Shown piece after piece: positions 7,915 to 22,561 of a DNA stretch of 24,381 nucleotides (within the stretch, counting starts at the first letter, position 1; each line of letters opens with the position of its first letter). Source of the stretch: a virus; the IMG/VR virus record IMGVR_UViG_3300020281_000125, positions 1 to 24,381 of that record, one strand, 5' to 3'. Position numbers and translations under genes: made by a program. The notes below the pieces were generated by a model, which was given only the letters and a program-made list of their open reading frames with translations, was not told the origin of the DNA and made no database searches.

Positions 7915-8535
7915 ATGATGGCAACTCATACAAATAAAGACTCAAGACACATAATGCACGTAATTAAACCTGACTCTATAGGCGCAGAGATTGGAGTTTG
8001 GATGGGTAATACCTCAACACAGTTTCTAAAAAAAGGTCTTAAAAAGTTTTATATGGTTGATGCATATTCTGTAGAACCTTACAAAGAAAATACAGAAATG
8101 TCTTACCAAGAATATCTGGCAAAATATCAGCCAATTACTGGAGAGATTGCAGAAGCAGGATTTCAAAAGTTTTATGATAGAGTTTATAATGAAATTAAAG
8201 AAAGATTTAGGACTGTACCAGAAGCCGAAATATGTAGAATGACTTCAGATGAATGGTTTGAACAATTTATGGCAGCAAAAGGACATGGTAATGATGAGAT
8301 GCTTGATTGGATTTATATTGATGGTGATCATTCATATGAAGGCTGTTTAAAAGATTTGGAGAATGCACTTAATGTTGTACGACAAGGTGGATTAATTTTA
8401 GGTGATGACTATGGATGGCCGAATGCAAAATGGTTTAAACCCGGTGTAACAAAAGCTGTTGATGAATTTATAAATAAACATAACTTAACTAAAATGCTTA
8501 GACATGGCGAAACACAATACGAGATAAGAATATGA
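7915..8535 (+). CDS. Class I SAM-dependent methyltransferase
   Basis: 206 residues (ATG 7915 or 7918). The Rossmann methyltransferase motifs are clear: SAM-binding GAEIGVWMGNTS (residues ~23-34), acidic post-strand-2 VDAYS, and DWIYIDGDHSYEGCLKDLE followed by GGLILGDDYG, which is the Methyltransf_24/TylF-like arrangement with a metal-binding Asp-His. Such enzymes O-methylate sugars. Between a glycosyltransferase and the RuBisCO-like gene, a sugar-modifying role is likely. Its stop overlaps the next ATG. Confidence 0.85.
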   Translation: MMATHTNKDSRHIMHVIKPDSIGAEIGVWMGNTSTQFLKKGLKKFYMVDAYSVEPYKENTEMSYQEYLAKYQPITGEIAEAGFQKFYDRVYNEIKERFRTVPEAEICRMTSDEWFEQFMAAKGHGNDEMLDWIYIDGDHSYEGCLKDLENALNVVRQGGLILGDDYGWPNAKWFKPGVTKAVDEFINKHNLTKMLRHGETQYEIRI

Positions 8536-9677
8536 GTAATACAAGTCCATTTCCTGATCTACCAGTCACCAACACATGGCAGCCGCCTGAGGTAACTGAA
8601 CCAATAAAAAGGTACACTGTCACATACGAAGTTGATGGTCCAGATATTCCAAAGATTGCACATGAAATTGCAATAGGTCAAAGTATTGGTAATCCTAATA
8701 TAAGATCGGAAATAGAAAACTCTCCAAACATAAAAGATTATGCAGCAAATATAGAAAGCATAGATGGCAACATAGTTAAAATAAGTTTTAATAGAAATGC
8801 TTTTATTTGGCCTAATGTAAATCAACTCATGTGTATTATTATGGGAGGTCATACTGACATACTAGGAGTTGATAGATGTAGAGTACTAGATATTGATATT
8901 GAAATCAAGACAGATGGACCTGTTTTAGGTATGTCAGGTTGGAAAGATAGATTAGATGCTCATAATCGACCACTATTTGGTGCTATAATAAAACCAAAGT
9001 CCGGTTTAAATATGGAACAATACATGTCCATAGTTAAAGACATGGTCTACGGTGGTGCAGATTTTATTAAAGAAGATGAAATCATGGCACATAATTTATA
9101 CTTACCACTTGAAAAAAGAGTAGAGGCTGTTGAGCACTTAAAGAATATATCAGGCTGGAAAGGTTTCTTTGCGTACTGTATAAATGCGGATCCTATGGAA
9201 TTAATAGCTAATATTAAAAAGATTTATTATCATACTTGCACACCAAACGTTATTGGTGGCTGTCATATTAATTTTTGGTCTGGATTAGGTGCATATACAT
9301 CAGCAAGAGGATTCGATATTGCAACACACTACCAACGTTCAGGTATTAGAATATTAACTGATCCAAGTAACAAATATTCTTTAGCTTGGCCAGTGTTAGT
9401 GAAACTTGGCTGTATGGCAGGAGTTGACAGTATGCATGTTGGTATGTTAGGCGGATACTATCCAGAAGGTGAAAGTGAAGAAGAAACATTAGAAGCAATT
9501 AAAATATGTCAGAAATATGATGTGATTCCCTCATTAAGTTGTGGTATGAATCCAGTCCTTGCAAGAGAAATAAAAGAAAGAATAGGTAATAACTGGATGG
9601 CATCAGTTGGAGGATGGCTACATACAGGTGATAGCCTAATTAAAAAAGTAAAAGAGATGAGTGAAAGTTTGAATTAA
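8532..9677 (+). CDS. RuBisCO-like protein (form IV-type large-subunit homologue)
   Basis: 381 residues. The RuBisCO large-chain barrel is recognisable: FGAIIKPKSGL (Lys154 and Lys156, equal to spinach K175/K177), GGADFIKEDE (Lys180, Asp182, Glu183, equal to carbamylated K201 and metal ligands D203/E204), DSMHVGML (His302, equal to H327), PSLSCGMNP (Ser336, equal to S379) and SVGGWLH (phosphate-loop Gly pair). Missing are loop-6 Lys334 (Tyr309 here), the H294/R295 pair (region reads LTDPSN) and N123 (Gly in MGGHTD). True carboxylase activity is therefore unlikely; an enolase, isomerase or decarboxylase acting on a sugar phosphate fits known RuBisCO-like proteins. It overlaps its neighbours by ATGA/TAATGA, so it belongs to the glycan operon. 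Shorter than RuBisCO (~470). Confidence 0.9.
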   Translation: MSNTSPFPDLPVTNTWQPPEVTEPIKRYTVTYEVDGPDIPKIAHEIAIGQSIGNPNIRSEIENSPNIKDYAANIESIDGNIVKISFNRNAFIWPNVNQLMCIIMGGHTDILGVDRCRVLDIDIEIKTDGPVLGMSGWKDRLDAHNRPLFGAIIKPKSGLNMEQYMSIVKDMVYGGADFIKEDEIMAHNLYLPLEKRVEAVEHLKNISGWKGFFAYCINADPMELIANIKKIYYHTCTPNVIGGCHINFWSGLGAYTSARGFDIATHYQRSGIRILTDPSNKYSLAWPVLVKLGCMAGVDSMHVGMLGGYYPEGESEEETLEAIKICQKYDVIPSLSCGMNPVLAREIKERIGNNWMASVGGWLHTGDSLIKKVKEMSESLN

Positions 9678-18399: not shown

Positions 18400-18412
18400 G
18401 TAATACATTAAA

Positions 18413-18482
18413 CGTTCACCCGAAAGGGCGGAAGTAAGCGATCGCTGAAGGAACGCACCTAACCATTAACTAGGGAGGGTGA
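18413..18482 (+). promoter_or_regulatory. Glutamine riboswitch (glnA / Downstream-peptide RNA class)
   Basis: The class consensus is present almost without change: outer stem CGTTC (18413-18417) with GAACG (18451-18455), hairpin CCC-GAAA-GGG, then CGGAAGTAAG, a short AGC-GATC-GCT hairpin, and GAAGGAACGCACC. These RNAs bind L-glutamine. The expression platform is visible: TCACCC (18416-18421), part of the aptamer, is exactly complementary to GGGTGA (18477-18482), and CACC (18456-18459) to GGTG (18478-18481), both covering the ribosome site of the 18486 gene. So control of translation by glutamine is likely. Direction of the switch is not certain. Confidence 0.92.
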
Positions 18483-20151: not shown

Positions 20152-20973
20152 ATGACGCAATTAATATCCCCAAAAAAGTTTACAGACACAGTTGGCCTTT
20201 TAAGGTCATTTTTTTTAGATAAAGGTTTTTTAGAAGTTCACACTCAAAATAGGTTGTCAATCTTGGCAGCTTGCGAGGATCCATTTAATGTGGCAACTTA
20301 CAAGTATGCGGGTGAAGTTTGGCCATTACCACAAACCGGACAGATGTGGCTAGAACACGAATTACTTAGTAAACCTGACTCAAAAGGTTTCTTTTGTGTA
20401 TCAACTTCATATAGACAAGAACCTAACGCAATCCCTGGAAGACACGACATTATATTTCCAATGTTTGAATTTGAAATGCCCGGTGACATATATGATCTTT
20501 CAAAAATGGAATACGAGTTAGTAGAATACTTAGGATTTAAAAAGCCAGAAGAAAAGACTTACTCAAAATGGCAAGAGTATTTTAGTTTAAACCAAGACCA
20601 AGAGCTAGTAGCAGAGCATGAAGCTAAAATGTATAATGATTTTAGTACTGCAATGATTACAGACTTTCCAGAGTTTACAAGTCCATTTTGGAATATGAGT
20701 CGTTACGAAGATGGTATAAGATCAAAAAAGATTGACGTAATATTAGGTGGTATGGAAACTATTGGATCAGCAGAAAGATCCACAAATAAAGATCAAATGA
20801 GAGATACATTTCATACGATTACTAATGGTGCATACTCTAAATTATTATTTGATTTATTTGGTAAAGAACGAGTTGAAGCAGAATTAGAAGAGTTCTTAAA
20901 GTTTGATTTCTTTCCACGAGTTGGTGGTGGGATCGGTATGACAAGAATGATTGCAGCTTTGGATCCTATGTAA
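20152..20973 (+). CDS. Class IIb aminoacyl-tRNA synthetase catalytic domain (Asn/Asp/Lys type)
   Basis: 273 residues; AAGGAAAG before ATG. Class II motifs are clear: motif 2 with FFCVSTSYRQEPNA (Arg88, Glu90) and GRHDIIFPMFEFEMPG; ILGGMETIGSAERS (residues 197-210), matching the EIIGGSQRE segment of AsnRS/AspRS; and motif 3 RVGGGIGMTRMIAAL (Arg265). The OB-fold anticodon-binding domain is absent, so the protein is the catalytic core only. Such stand-alone cores occur as AsnA, archaeal asparagine synthetase paralogues and tRNA-modifying enzymes. The adjoining Asn-anticodon tRNA favours aminoacylation, but amide synthesis is possible. Confidence 0.85.
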   Translation: MTQLISPKKFTDTVGLLRSFFLDKGFLEVHTQNRLSILAACEDPFNVATYKYAGEVWPLPQTGQMWLEHELLSKPDSKGFFCVSTSYRQEPNAIPGRHDIIFPMFEFEMPGDIYDLSKMEYELVEYLGFKKPEEKTYSKWQEYFSLNQDQELVAEHEAKMYNDFSTAMITDFPEFTSPFWNMSRYEDGIRSKKIDVILGGMETIGSAERSTNKDQMRDTFHTITNGAYSKLLFDLFGKERVEAELEEFLKFDFFPRVGGGIGMTRMIAALDPM

Positions 20974-20979
20974 AAGTTT

Positions 20980-21066
20980 TGCAGGGTGGCGGAACGGTAG
21001 ACGCGGTAGGTTGTTTCCCTATTGTCTGTGCGAGACGTGGTGGTTCGAATCCACCCCCTGCAGCCA
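20980..21066 (+). tRNA. tRNA with Asn anticodon GUU but a long variable arm (class II, Leu-like body)
   Basis: Acceptor stem TGCAGGG/CCCTGCA, T8-G9, D arm GCG/CGC with Leu-like loop (GAACGGTAGA), anticodon stem GTAGG/CCTAT with loop TTGTTTC (anticodon GTT at 21013-21015), variable arm of 16 nt with GTCT/AGAC stem, T arm GGTGG-TTCGAAT-CCACC, G73 and encoded CCA. Normal tRNA-Asn is class I with a short variable loop. U1-A72 and G73 are shared with tRNA-Asn, while D arm and variable arm are of the Leu type. Position 37 is U, which is very rare. It begins 6 nt after the stop of the synthetase-like gene. Confidence 0.9.
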
Positions 21067-21076
21067 AAAATAATCC

Positions 21077-21105
21077 TTTACAAATGTGTATTTATGTAGT
21101 ATAAT
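21077..21105 (+). promoter_or_regulatory. Sigma70-like promoter for tmRNA (TTTACA, 17 bp, TATAAT)
   Basis: -35 TTTACA 21077-21082, 17 bp, consensus -10 TATAAT 21100-21105, about 30 bases before the tmRNA acceptor piece. Confidence 0.87.
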
Positions 21106-21134
21106 ATATATTATATAACGATGAAACAAAGTAA

Positions 21135-21380
21135 AAAATTTACTGGACTCGGGGGCGGTACCCGACAGCTCCACCAAAAACACTCGATTATCGCGAGTAG
21201 TTTTGATGGGGCTGAAATAGGATCGACAGGAATTGAATAGCAATGTGGAGTTATCCGGATGTGAGCTCGGTTAATGCGAACAAAACTCTAAATGCAAACG
21301 ATAATTTTGCATCTCAGGAGTTAGCTCAAGCAGCGTAATTCCTATGCGCTAGGAGAGAGCGTGGAAACAGAATCTCTCCA
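21135..21380 (+). ncRNA. ssrA: Permuted two-piece tmRNA (alphaproteobacterial type)
   Basis: The order is inverted relative to one-piece tmRNA. First the acceptor piece: T-arm-like TCGGG-GGCGGTA-CCCGA (21149-21165), CAGCTCC, A73 and CCA ending at 21176. Then a spacer (21177-21207) with stem AAAACACTCG/CGAGT-A-GTTTT. Then the coding piece from GGGGCTGAAATAGGATCGAC (21208), whose GGGGCTG pairs with CAGCTCC. The tag reads ANDNFASQELAQAA (21294-21335) and stops at TAA; ANDNFA is typical of alphaproteobacterial tags. A 3' hairpin GGAGAGA/TCTCTCC closes the piece near 21379. It rescues stalled ribosomes and marks products for proteolysis. Outer ends are estimated. Confidence 0.93.
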
Positions 21381-21404
21381 CCAACACACACACAGGAGGA
21401 CAGT

Positions 21405-21859: not shown

Positions 21860-22014
21860 TGTGGGGAAGAATAATTGAATGGACAGGTGGTGTGAAATAT
21901 GAGCCACCTAAAAAAAGGAGAAAGATAATGGCACCGAATCCACACTATGTTAATATGATAATTAATTTTAGTATACTTGGTACGTTGATTTATGTTGCAA
22001 TACAAGTGTCGTAG
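21859..22014 (+). CDS. Small membrane protein with possible dual start
   Basis: 51 residues from ATG 21859 (TGATG overlap with the previous stop). Basic N-terminal half (YEPPKKRRKIM) and one transmembrane segment (MIINFSILGTLIYVAIQV). AAAAAAAGGAGAAAGAT precedes an internal in-frame ATG at 21928 and is a stronger ribosome site than that of the first ATG, giving a 28-residue form that is almost only the transmembrane segment. Confidence 0.62.
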   Translation: MWGRIIEWTGGVKYEPPKKRRKIMAPNPHYVNMIINFSILGTLIYVAIQVS

Positions 22015-22561
22015 AACTCAAGACGCTGATTACATACAGGACTTGTTTATTAAAGCAAGTCAGTACGAACATCGAAACTCAAGTAACTATAGAAAATTAG
22101 AGAGAGTCGATAACTTTATCGACTTCTATACTTTACATAATGATGACTCTGTCATAGCATTTTCAGGTGTGTACCCGTTTGATAATAATCTTGTAAGAGT
22201 TCTCGACTCTACATTTTATTTTCCGCATTTTCGAGCCAAGCACGGAAGTTACTATTCAACTGCAAGTACATACTTCTTACCACAAATGACAGAGTATGTT
22301 ATCAGTATTGGAAAGACACCCTTCTTTTCTATGCAAAGTGACAGACCTCATAAAAGAATTATGAGTAAGATTGTAAAACATTTTAATGAAAACAATAAAC
22401 TACAGTATAAGTTACTTGACGGCTATCACTGGACATGCAAGGGTGAGCCGATTCAATCAAATAAAAGATGTTGGCAGACTGTGGCAGTTTGTGACTATGG
22501 TAACCTATTTTTAGAACTGTCAAACACTTGGAAGTCTCCTTTCCAGTCACCAAGAGACTGA
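21992..22561 (+). CDS. Conserved phage protein, possible GNAT-like fold
   Basis: 189 residues, ATG 21992 overlapping the previous gene by 23 nt. Residues ~10-60 and VIAFSGVYPFDNNLVRVLDS followed by FYFPHFRAKHGSYYSTAS have the look of an N-acetyltransferase core, and KRCWQTVAVCDYGN is a late strand. The pyrophosphate-binding loop (Q/RxxGxG/A) is not evident, so the assignment is weak. The last 67 nt overlap the convergent gene at 22495. Confidence 0.55.
   Translation: MLQYKCRRTQDADYIQDLFIKASQYEHRNSSNYRKLERVDNFIDFYTLHNDDSVIAFSGVYPFDNNLVRVLDSTFYFPHFRAKHGSYYSTASTYFLPQMTEYVISIGKTPFFSMQSDRPHKRIMSKIVKHFNENNKLQYKLLDGYHWTCKGEPIQSNKRCWQTVAVCDYGNLFLELSNTWKSPFQSPRD

Follow-up and report, generated by a model that had tools for sequence, protein, structure and literature searches.

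An anticodon-blind synthetase core and an Asx-identity class II tRNA-like RNA paired in marine viruses, with a possible role in pyrimidine synthesis

What can a synthetase-like protein that has no means of reading an anticodon do with a tRNA-like RNA that carries the anticodon of tRNA-Asn on a body resembling that of tRNA-Leu? This question is raised by two adjacent genes in a stretch of viral DNA of 24,381 nucleotides (IMG/VR record IMGVR_UViG_3300020281_000125), which was analysed as a whole and is called the window here. A reading of this window from its sequence alone had described the two genes as fused in an operon, of which the adjacency holds and the fusion does not. The features are the following.

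20152–20973 (+): stand-alone AsnRS/AspRS-type class II catalytic core, 273 aa (ORF, Pfam, PHROG, AlphaFold2)
20974–20979 (+): spacer of 6 nt between stop codon and RNA (4–11 nt in most relatives)
20980–21066 (+): class II tRNA-like RNA with anticodon GUU and encoded CCA (ARAGORN, Rfam, covariation, own family model)
20980–20986 (+): 5' strand of the acceptor stem (U1), pairing with 21056–21062 (A72)
20989–21004 (+): D arm of the tRNA-Leu type
21006–21022 (+): anticodon arm with the loop TTGTTTC at 21011–21017, GUU at 21013–21015 and a pyrimidine at position 37
21023–21038 (+): variable arm of 16 nt, the stem of which covaries in the family
21039–21055 (+): T arm
21063–21066 (+): discriminator G73 and encoded CCA

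The synthetase core and its RNA

The product of the ORF at 20152–20973 matches Pfam tRNA-synt_2 (D, K, N) with residues 14–270 (E=7e-17); no OB-fold or other anticodon-binding family was found in the Pfam search of the 273-aa enzyme, which returned tRNA-synt_2 only. It belongs to PHROG 29758 (4.5e-131), a family of unknown function, and its scores against NCBIfam equivalogs are all far below the cut-offs, i.e. 27.2 bits for AspRS, 20.5 bits for AsnRS (asnS cut-off 342.6 bits), 19.9 bits for AsnA (cut-off for AsnA/AS-AR, PRK06462, 389 bits) and 15.3 bits for EpmA. The AlphaFold2 model (pLDDT 91.6, pTM 0.89) finds its best structural match in the catalytic domain of the class IIb AsnRS of Pyrococcus horikoshii (1x54), with a TM score of 0.80 by query and 0.52 by target, so that in the predicted structure the catalytic domain appears whole and the anticodon domain absent. 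Enzyme and AsnRS share the catalytic fold, motifs 2 and 3 and a GQxxxLE-type stretch (QTGQMWLE in the enzyme, QSSQLYLE in AsnRS), but the OB-fold anticodon-binding domain is missing in the former and identity is about 18%. Residues R88, E90 and H98 of motif 2 and R265 of motif 3, which bind ATP and substrate, are invariant in 38 diverse members of the family. The protein thus is the class IIb core without anticodon-binding domain that had been proposed, and as such it has no means of contacting an anticodon.

The RNA at 20980–21066 is called tRNA-Asn(gtt) by ARAGORN and scores 47.6 bits with the Rfam tRNA model and 87.7 bits with our own family covariance model, the other matches of which are tRNA-Leu genes. 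(A loose RNA pattern missed it in the window, its D loop being one base shorter.) Measured against a canonical tRNA-Asn, it has the anticodon GUU, G73 and U33, but neither the short variable loop of class I nor the purine at position 37, since the loop TTGTTTC continues after U33 and G34 U35 U36 with U37 and C38. Measured against tRNA-Leu, it has a Leu-like D arm, but G73 and GUU instead of A73 and a Leu anticodon. All that had been noted of this RNA at first sight, i.e. its place 6 nt downstream, GUU, U1–A72, G73, the Leu-like D arm and the variable arm of 16 nt, was confirmed, and the idea of a Leu-like class II body that carries the identity of tRNA-Asn is supported. When 30 relatives were aligned to its fold, 98.7% of the cells of 24 pairs were paired, and the stems showed 192 double-sided changes as against 57 in shuffles, with only the true register scoring. 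The fold of this RNA is under selection.

Conservation of the pair and the bases that the RNA has kept

Enzyme and RNA form a conserved module that is widespread in marine viruses. At least 599 IMG/VR stretches were obtained per scan, nearly all of them encoding relatives of the enzyme, and among the 285 marine viral loci that could be scored (those whose sequence continues for 200 nt or more downstream) a class II RNA lies at most 420 nt downstream of the enzyme gene in 264, with two further RNAs (L295, L300) being seen by the covariance model. The two genes are thus a true pair, as had been suspected, and related phages keep both together. The pair is also present, with the RNA directly downstream, in the cultured cyanophages P-SSM2, P-SSM5 and P-SSM7, where GenBank labels its members ‘tRNA ligase’ and ‘tRNA-Asn’. 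In the P-SSM2 entry (AY939844.2) the tRNA-Asn is wrongly given at 164094–164179, about 2 kb away from the true RNA, which is located directly behind the enzyme gene (ARAGORN, L082 3813–3900). Many pair-carrying phages encode other tRNAs as well. The CCA end is encoded in about two thirds of the viral copies of the RNA, and its variable arm can be as short as 5 nt or as long as 39 nt, which argues against the initial suggestion that the enzyme might read the long arm, be it by sequence or by length. A third partner gene was sought by clustering the ORFs within 6 kb, which revealed no universal neighbour, no family being shared by more than 27 of the 324 loci, so that there is no obvious aminoacyl transferase.

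Which parts of the RNA are constant is informative about its use. U1–A72 and G73 occur in all 159 distinct viral RNAs, as do G34 and U35, and U36 occurs in 158, the sole exception having GUC. In bacteria, the Asn identity consists of the anticodon and G73 and the Asp identity of G73, G34, U35, C36 and C38, whereas U1–A72 is the determinant for the amidation of Asp-tRNA to Asn-tRNA by GatCAB (PMC9976931; PMC4206432). This mark of a GatCAB substrate (U1–A72, no G1–C72) is found in 159/159 viral RNAs and in 35/35 RNAs from Bacteroidota, which are described below.

A decoding tRNA with U36, however, is expected to have an A (usually t6A) at position 37 and U33. Of the 159 distinct viral RNAs, 145 (91%) have a pyrimidine at position 37 and only 14 a purine, and U33 is present in 137 and replaced in 22 (14%). 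The other tRNAs encoded at these loci, 114 in number, behave differently: 111 have a purine at position 37 and three a pyrimidine, and the exceptions listed seem to be RNAs of the target family that were mis-parsed; the difference in pyrimidine-37 between the class II RNAs and the neighbouring tRNAs is highly significant (Fisher 6e-53, computed on an earlier set of 149 RNAs rather than on the 159). Since the identity bases are invariant while U33 and purine-37 have been lost, the viral RNA, as judged from its bases, probably is built for Asx aminoacylation and not for decoding, and we consider it quite likely that it is indeed a non-decoding, Asx-charged RNA. The simplest reading would be that selection maintains it as a substrate which normal anticodon-reading enzymes charge with Asp or Asn, and keeps it off the ribosome. 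As the core encoded next to it has no reach to an anticodon that is nevertheless invariant, this reader should be another enzyme, i.e. one of the host. Among the uses that the sequence-only reading had considered, a non-translational one such as amino-acid donation therefore fits best, whereas inserting a residue at Asn codons would require a loop fit for decoding, and escape from an anticodon nuclease is at odds with the anticodon itself being the invariant part. An aminoacylated and apparently non-decoding tRNA-like RNA is known from Bacillus cereus, i.e. tRNA(Other) with LysRS1/LysRS2; the viral RNA differs from it in identity and partners, and tRNA(Other) is not paired with an anticodon-blind core.

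Cellular relatives and pyrimidine genes

The enzyme had been supposed to be phage-specific, which it is not. Relatives with 45–62% identity are found in metagenome-assembled genomes of Bacteroidota, Patescibacteria, Myxococcota, Chlamydiota, Dependentiae, a Woesearchaeote and others, with the proviso that such contigs can be viral. In a number of these loci the enzyme gene stands among pyrimidine genes. The order is enzyme–pyrEF–pyrD in L108 and L110 and enzyme–DHODH–pyrE–pyrF in L114 (Chlamydiota; neighbours checked); pyrEF and pyrD adjoin the enzyme in L093, L095 (checked), L097 and L103, pyrD does so in L092, and in L096 pyrEF followed by guaA, guaB and purM is found beside it.

Enzyme carriers also tend to be devoid of pyrB, with all absences resting on draft genomes of unstated completeness: in the order of G001, pyrB is present in 139/149 genomes but in 0/5 enzyme-positive ones (p=4.4e-7), with five enzyme-negative genomes being without it, too; in the family of G008, it is missing in 4/4 enzyme carriers versus 10/116 others (p=1.2e-4, or p=0.004 with the curated cut-off); and overall there is no pyrB match in 20 of 25 enzyme carriers, pyrE being matched in 24 of 27. 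As for the next step, pyrC has no match in G008 and G017 and only noise-level matches in G007 and G025, such that all four carriers among the Flavobacteriia give either no dihydroorotase match or one at noise level, and neither Chlamydiota carrier gives any. Among Chitinophagales, 0/5 enzyme-positive genomes versus 122/144 others have pyrC above the cut-off (p=1.4e-4), with the former retaining a sub-threshold pyrC-like gene.

Because the enzyme is thus found in pyr operons and present where pyrB, and in places pyrC, is absent, this gene content suggests that the most likely role of the cellular enzyme is to replace PyrB, together with PyrC in some lineages, and on balance we favour the view that the enzyme works in pyrimidine synthesis. 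Its likeness to PyrB (aspartate carbamoyltransferase) would be one of place only, i.e. the cellular relatives occupy PyrB's apparent position in pyr operons, but the fold is unrelated and the chemistry presumably different and ATP-using. This link to pyrimidine biosynthesis and the loss of pyrB are new and had not been foreseen from the window; a search of the open-licence PMC literature yielded no description of the enzyme–RNA pair, nor of such an alternative to PyrB.

In phages, the connection to pyrimidines is also visible. In a set of 474 cyanophage-like records, all of phages whose UvsX resembles that of P-SSM7, the six that encode the enzyme are also the six, and the only ones, that encode PyrE of the P-SSM2 type. 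As these six are P-SSM2, P-SSM5, P-SSM7 and duplicates, and only two independent genera are represented, the corresponding p=7e-14 is overstated. In L088 and L255–L260, the enzyme gene is preceded, at a distance of 63 nt, by a compact DHODH-like ORF; such an ORF is also found nearby in L066 and L046, and a true PyrE is encoded 285 nt upstream in L170. Further phage ‘pyrE’ neighbours had initially been listed as candidates (L010–L015, L056, L058, L290, L306, L316, L318, L320); L056, L290 and L306 were tested and turned out to be adenine phosphoribosyltransferases, and only L170 has a true PyrE. The window itself encodes a ThyX-type thymidylate synthase (318–989, +; PF02511, 4e-42), in keeping with pyrimidine supply being under the control of the phage.

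In cells, enzyme and RNA do not go strictly together. When the Flavobacteriia, Myxococcota and Chlamydiota that carry the enzyme were searched for a dedicated class II RNA, the matches examined were all tRNA-Leu or tRNA-Ser; the covariance search scored 150 candidates per genome, such that a divergent RNA could be missed. Most cellular members thus show no dedicated tRNA, and hence the enzyme can work without the RNA. The most diverged cellular locus (L115, 45% identity) has an ordinary class I tRNA-Asn(GUU) at 8820–8892, about 200 nt downstream of the enzyme.

Four enzyme-positive Aureispira-type Chitinophagales do have a class II RNA with U1–A72 and G73, which is unlinked to the enzyme gene and has the anticodon GUC and a variable arm of 46–64 nt (covariance model). 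A strict pairing of enzyme and tRNA in cells, as these four genomes seemed to indicate, was rejected, since a pattern search finds the GUC RNA in 89/149 Chitinophagales genomes, mostly without the enzyme; in cells, the two are therefore not obligate partners. The GUC RNA often occurs in 2–5 tandem copies (4–5 in L413 and L414), and across Chitinophagales (e.g. L412–L425) its giant variable arm measures 43–123 nt. In 37 distinct matches obtained with up to three free mismatches, positions 34–36 and C38 never vary whereas 32, 33 and 37 do; this set is unbiased, in contrast to the 35 Bacteroidota RNAs mentioned above, which were gathered with a regular expression fixing GUC and C38. The GUC RNA thus seems to combine the full Asp identity set and the GatCAB mark with a loop unfit for decoding. 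A GUC tRNA that is Asp-charged and then amidated would, if it did decode, lead to Asp codons being read as Asn, and this would account for the broken loop. The GUC RNA may be a dedicated RNA for tRNA-dependent Asn supply, with the viral GUU RNA as its counterpart. The viral RNA has the charging and amidation determinants of the known route of this kind (non-discriminating AspRS, GatCAB and tRNA-Asn), but it is class II with an apparently non-decoding loop, whereas the tRNA-Asn of the known route also translates. Beside the GUC RNA, an Lrp/AsnC regulator is encoded in 8/14 loci examined, and the one regulator tested is AsnC-like (PRK11179, 7.6e-52). Rfam gives no match at four Chitinophagales loci with the GUC RNA, even at E 0.1, and ARAGORN does not call it at L371, L372 and L376.

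What the module may do

Our best explanation, which we put forward tentatively, is that the viral module is a two-part metabolic device—a non-decoding carrier tRNA for Asn or Asp and an anticodon-blind Asx enzyme—that feeds pyrimidine synthesis. The RNA would be a tRNA turned into an amino-acid carrier, which has kept its charging determinants (G34 U35 U36, G73), is charged with Asp or Asn by the anticodon-reading AspRS or AsnRS of the host and, via U1–A72, may have its Asp amidated by GatCAB. The AsnRS-like core would then act with ATP either on the charged end or on the Asn or Asp that this RNA provides. The likely product would be a precursor of orotate, because the cellular relatives appear to replace pyrB and sometimes pyrC, and PyrD and PyrE, whether host- or phage-encoded, would use it for making pyrimidines, such that phages would boost the supply for DNA synthesis. 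A candidate reaction, attractive because Asn already has both ring nitrogens, is Asn + bicarbonate + ATP → dihydroorotate. That the RNA serves as the direct donor in a reaction leading to a pyrimidine precursor is more doubtful. Somewhat unlikely is the complete scheme of a tRNA-dependent pyrimidine branch in marine phages, in which Asn or Asp on the class II tRNA, or Asn delivered by this tRNA, would be converted to carbamoyl-aspartate or dihydroorotate by the core with ATP, in place of PyrB and, in some lineages, of PyrC. The usual reaction of the class II synthetase fold is activation of an alpha-carboxyl group, which is not obviously what orotate synthesis needs and counts against the pyrimidine reading. 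With enzymes without the RNA and RNAs without the enzyme both existing in cells, the two may also have separate jobs, which phages have joined.

Alternatively, the phage core itself could charge the RNA by recognizing U1–A72 and G73, and perhaps the class II body, with the amino acid going to an acceptor that could be a protein, a lipid, the cell wall or a nucleic acid. The nearly obligatory adjacency in viruses as well as the invariance of the class II catalytic residues and of the acceptor elements would all be in line with such a synthetase. Yet, the invariance of G34 U35 U36 would make little sense for an enzyme without an anticodon domain, the loss of pyrB would go unexplained, no conserved transferase gene is nearby in the 324 loci, and most cellular members show no such tRNA; we thus regard self-charging as unlikely.

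Asparagine synthetase A and the archaeal AS-AR provide a precedent for an AsxRS core without anticodon domain being used outside of translation; these enzymes derive from AspRS and lack its tRNA-binding domain (PMC9437257). An enzyme of this type that makes Asn from Asp, with the tRNA aiding Asn supply, could account for the same domain loss and for the AsnC-type regulators beside the Bacteroidota RNA. It is improbable, however, as the AsnA score of 19.9 bits (as against a cut-off of 389) is no better than those for AspRS and AsnRS, such that the better match to AsnA that could have made the pairing coincidental is not seen; AsnRS and AspRS are the top folds with AsnA being absent from the best 50 structural matches of the model; and synthesis of free Asn predicts neither operons with pyrD and pyrE nor loss of pyrB, whereas our enzyme is linked to pyr genes and, in the viral case, also to a tRNA.

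The RNA might also act as a decoy, i.e. as a sponge for an anticodon nuclease, for AspRS or AsnRS or for GatCAB, or as a sensor of Asn or Asp levels that controls the operon. The features that it has kept are precisely those by which tRNA-Asn or tRNA-Asp is recognized, it lies just behind the enzyme gene, and its Bacteroidota version often has the AsnC-type regulator at its side (in the 8/14 loci). But the tight pairing with the enzyme would find no explanation, an encoded CCA is needless for a pure sponge, and we know of no nuclease that requires U1–A72 and G73, which makes this role hardly likely. Finally, an ordinary phage tRNA-Asn with a minimal AsnRS that boosts the reading of AAC and AAU in phage mRNAs, as the invariant GUU, the other tRNAs of many such phages and the GenBank labels might suggest, is very improbable given the prevalence of pyrimidine-37 and the loss of U33 as compared to the neighbouring tRNAs, a class II arm of such variable length and enzyme relatives that have no tRNA.

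If the tentative pyrimidine reading is true, a relative of synthetases replaces aspartate carbamoyltransferase in an unsuspected route into one of life's most conserved pathways, a tRNA retired from translation serves metabolism as an amino-acid carrier, and phages have a new means of steering the nucleotide supply of their hosts by a module that is very abundant in marine viruses. Whatever the chemistry, two undescribed families emerge, one of AsxRS cores that are blind to the anticodon and linked to pyr genes, the other of class II RNAs of Asx identity, in viruses and in Chitinophagales, that apparently cannot decode.

Some further features of the window and of the viral enzymes are of interest in their own right. 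Directly behind the class II RNA, a permuted tmRNA of the alphaproteobacterial type is encoded (21073–21382, +; 141.6 bits; tag ANDNFASQELAQAA). A 189-aa ORF at 21992–22561 was suspected to be a GNAT and has no Pfam match. The protein encoded at 8532–9674 (+) resembles the large chain of RuBisCO (PF00016, 8.9e-22), and with 105 bits for its best NCBIfam match, type III RuBisCO (cut-off 497), it may be a divergent RuBisCO or a RuBisCO-like protein. Glutamine riboswitch aptamers (RF01739, 52.8–57.6 bits) are found in the window (18411–18459, +), where no notable plus-strand ORF precedes the synthetase gene 1.7 kb away, and in L025 (991–1041) and L029 (5947–5997), where they lie just behind the class II RNA. 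Among viral enzymes, 33/220 distinct proteins end with -AA (AKAA, QLAA, ALAA; e.g. L016, L020, L024, L060), as compared to 17/2120 neighbouring ORFs of at least 100 aa; these tails resemble the ssrA degron and perhaps mediate turnover by ClpXP.
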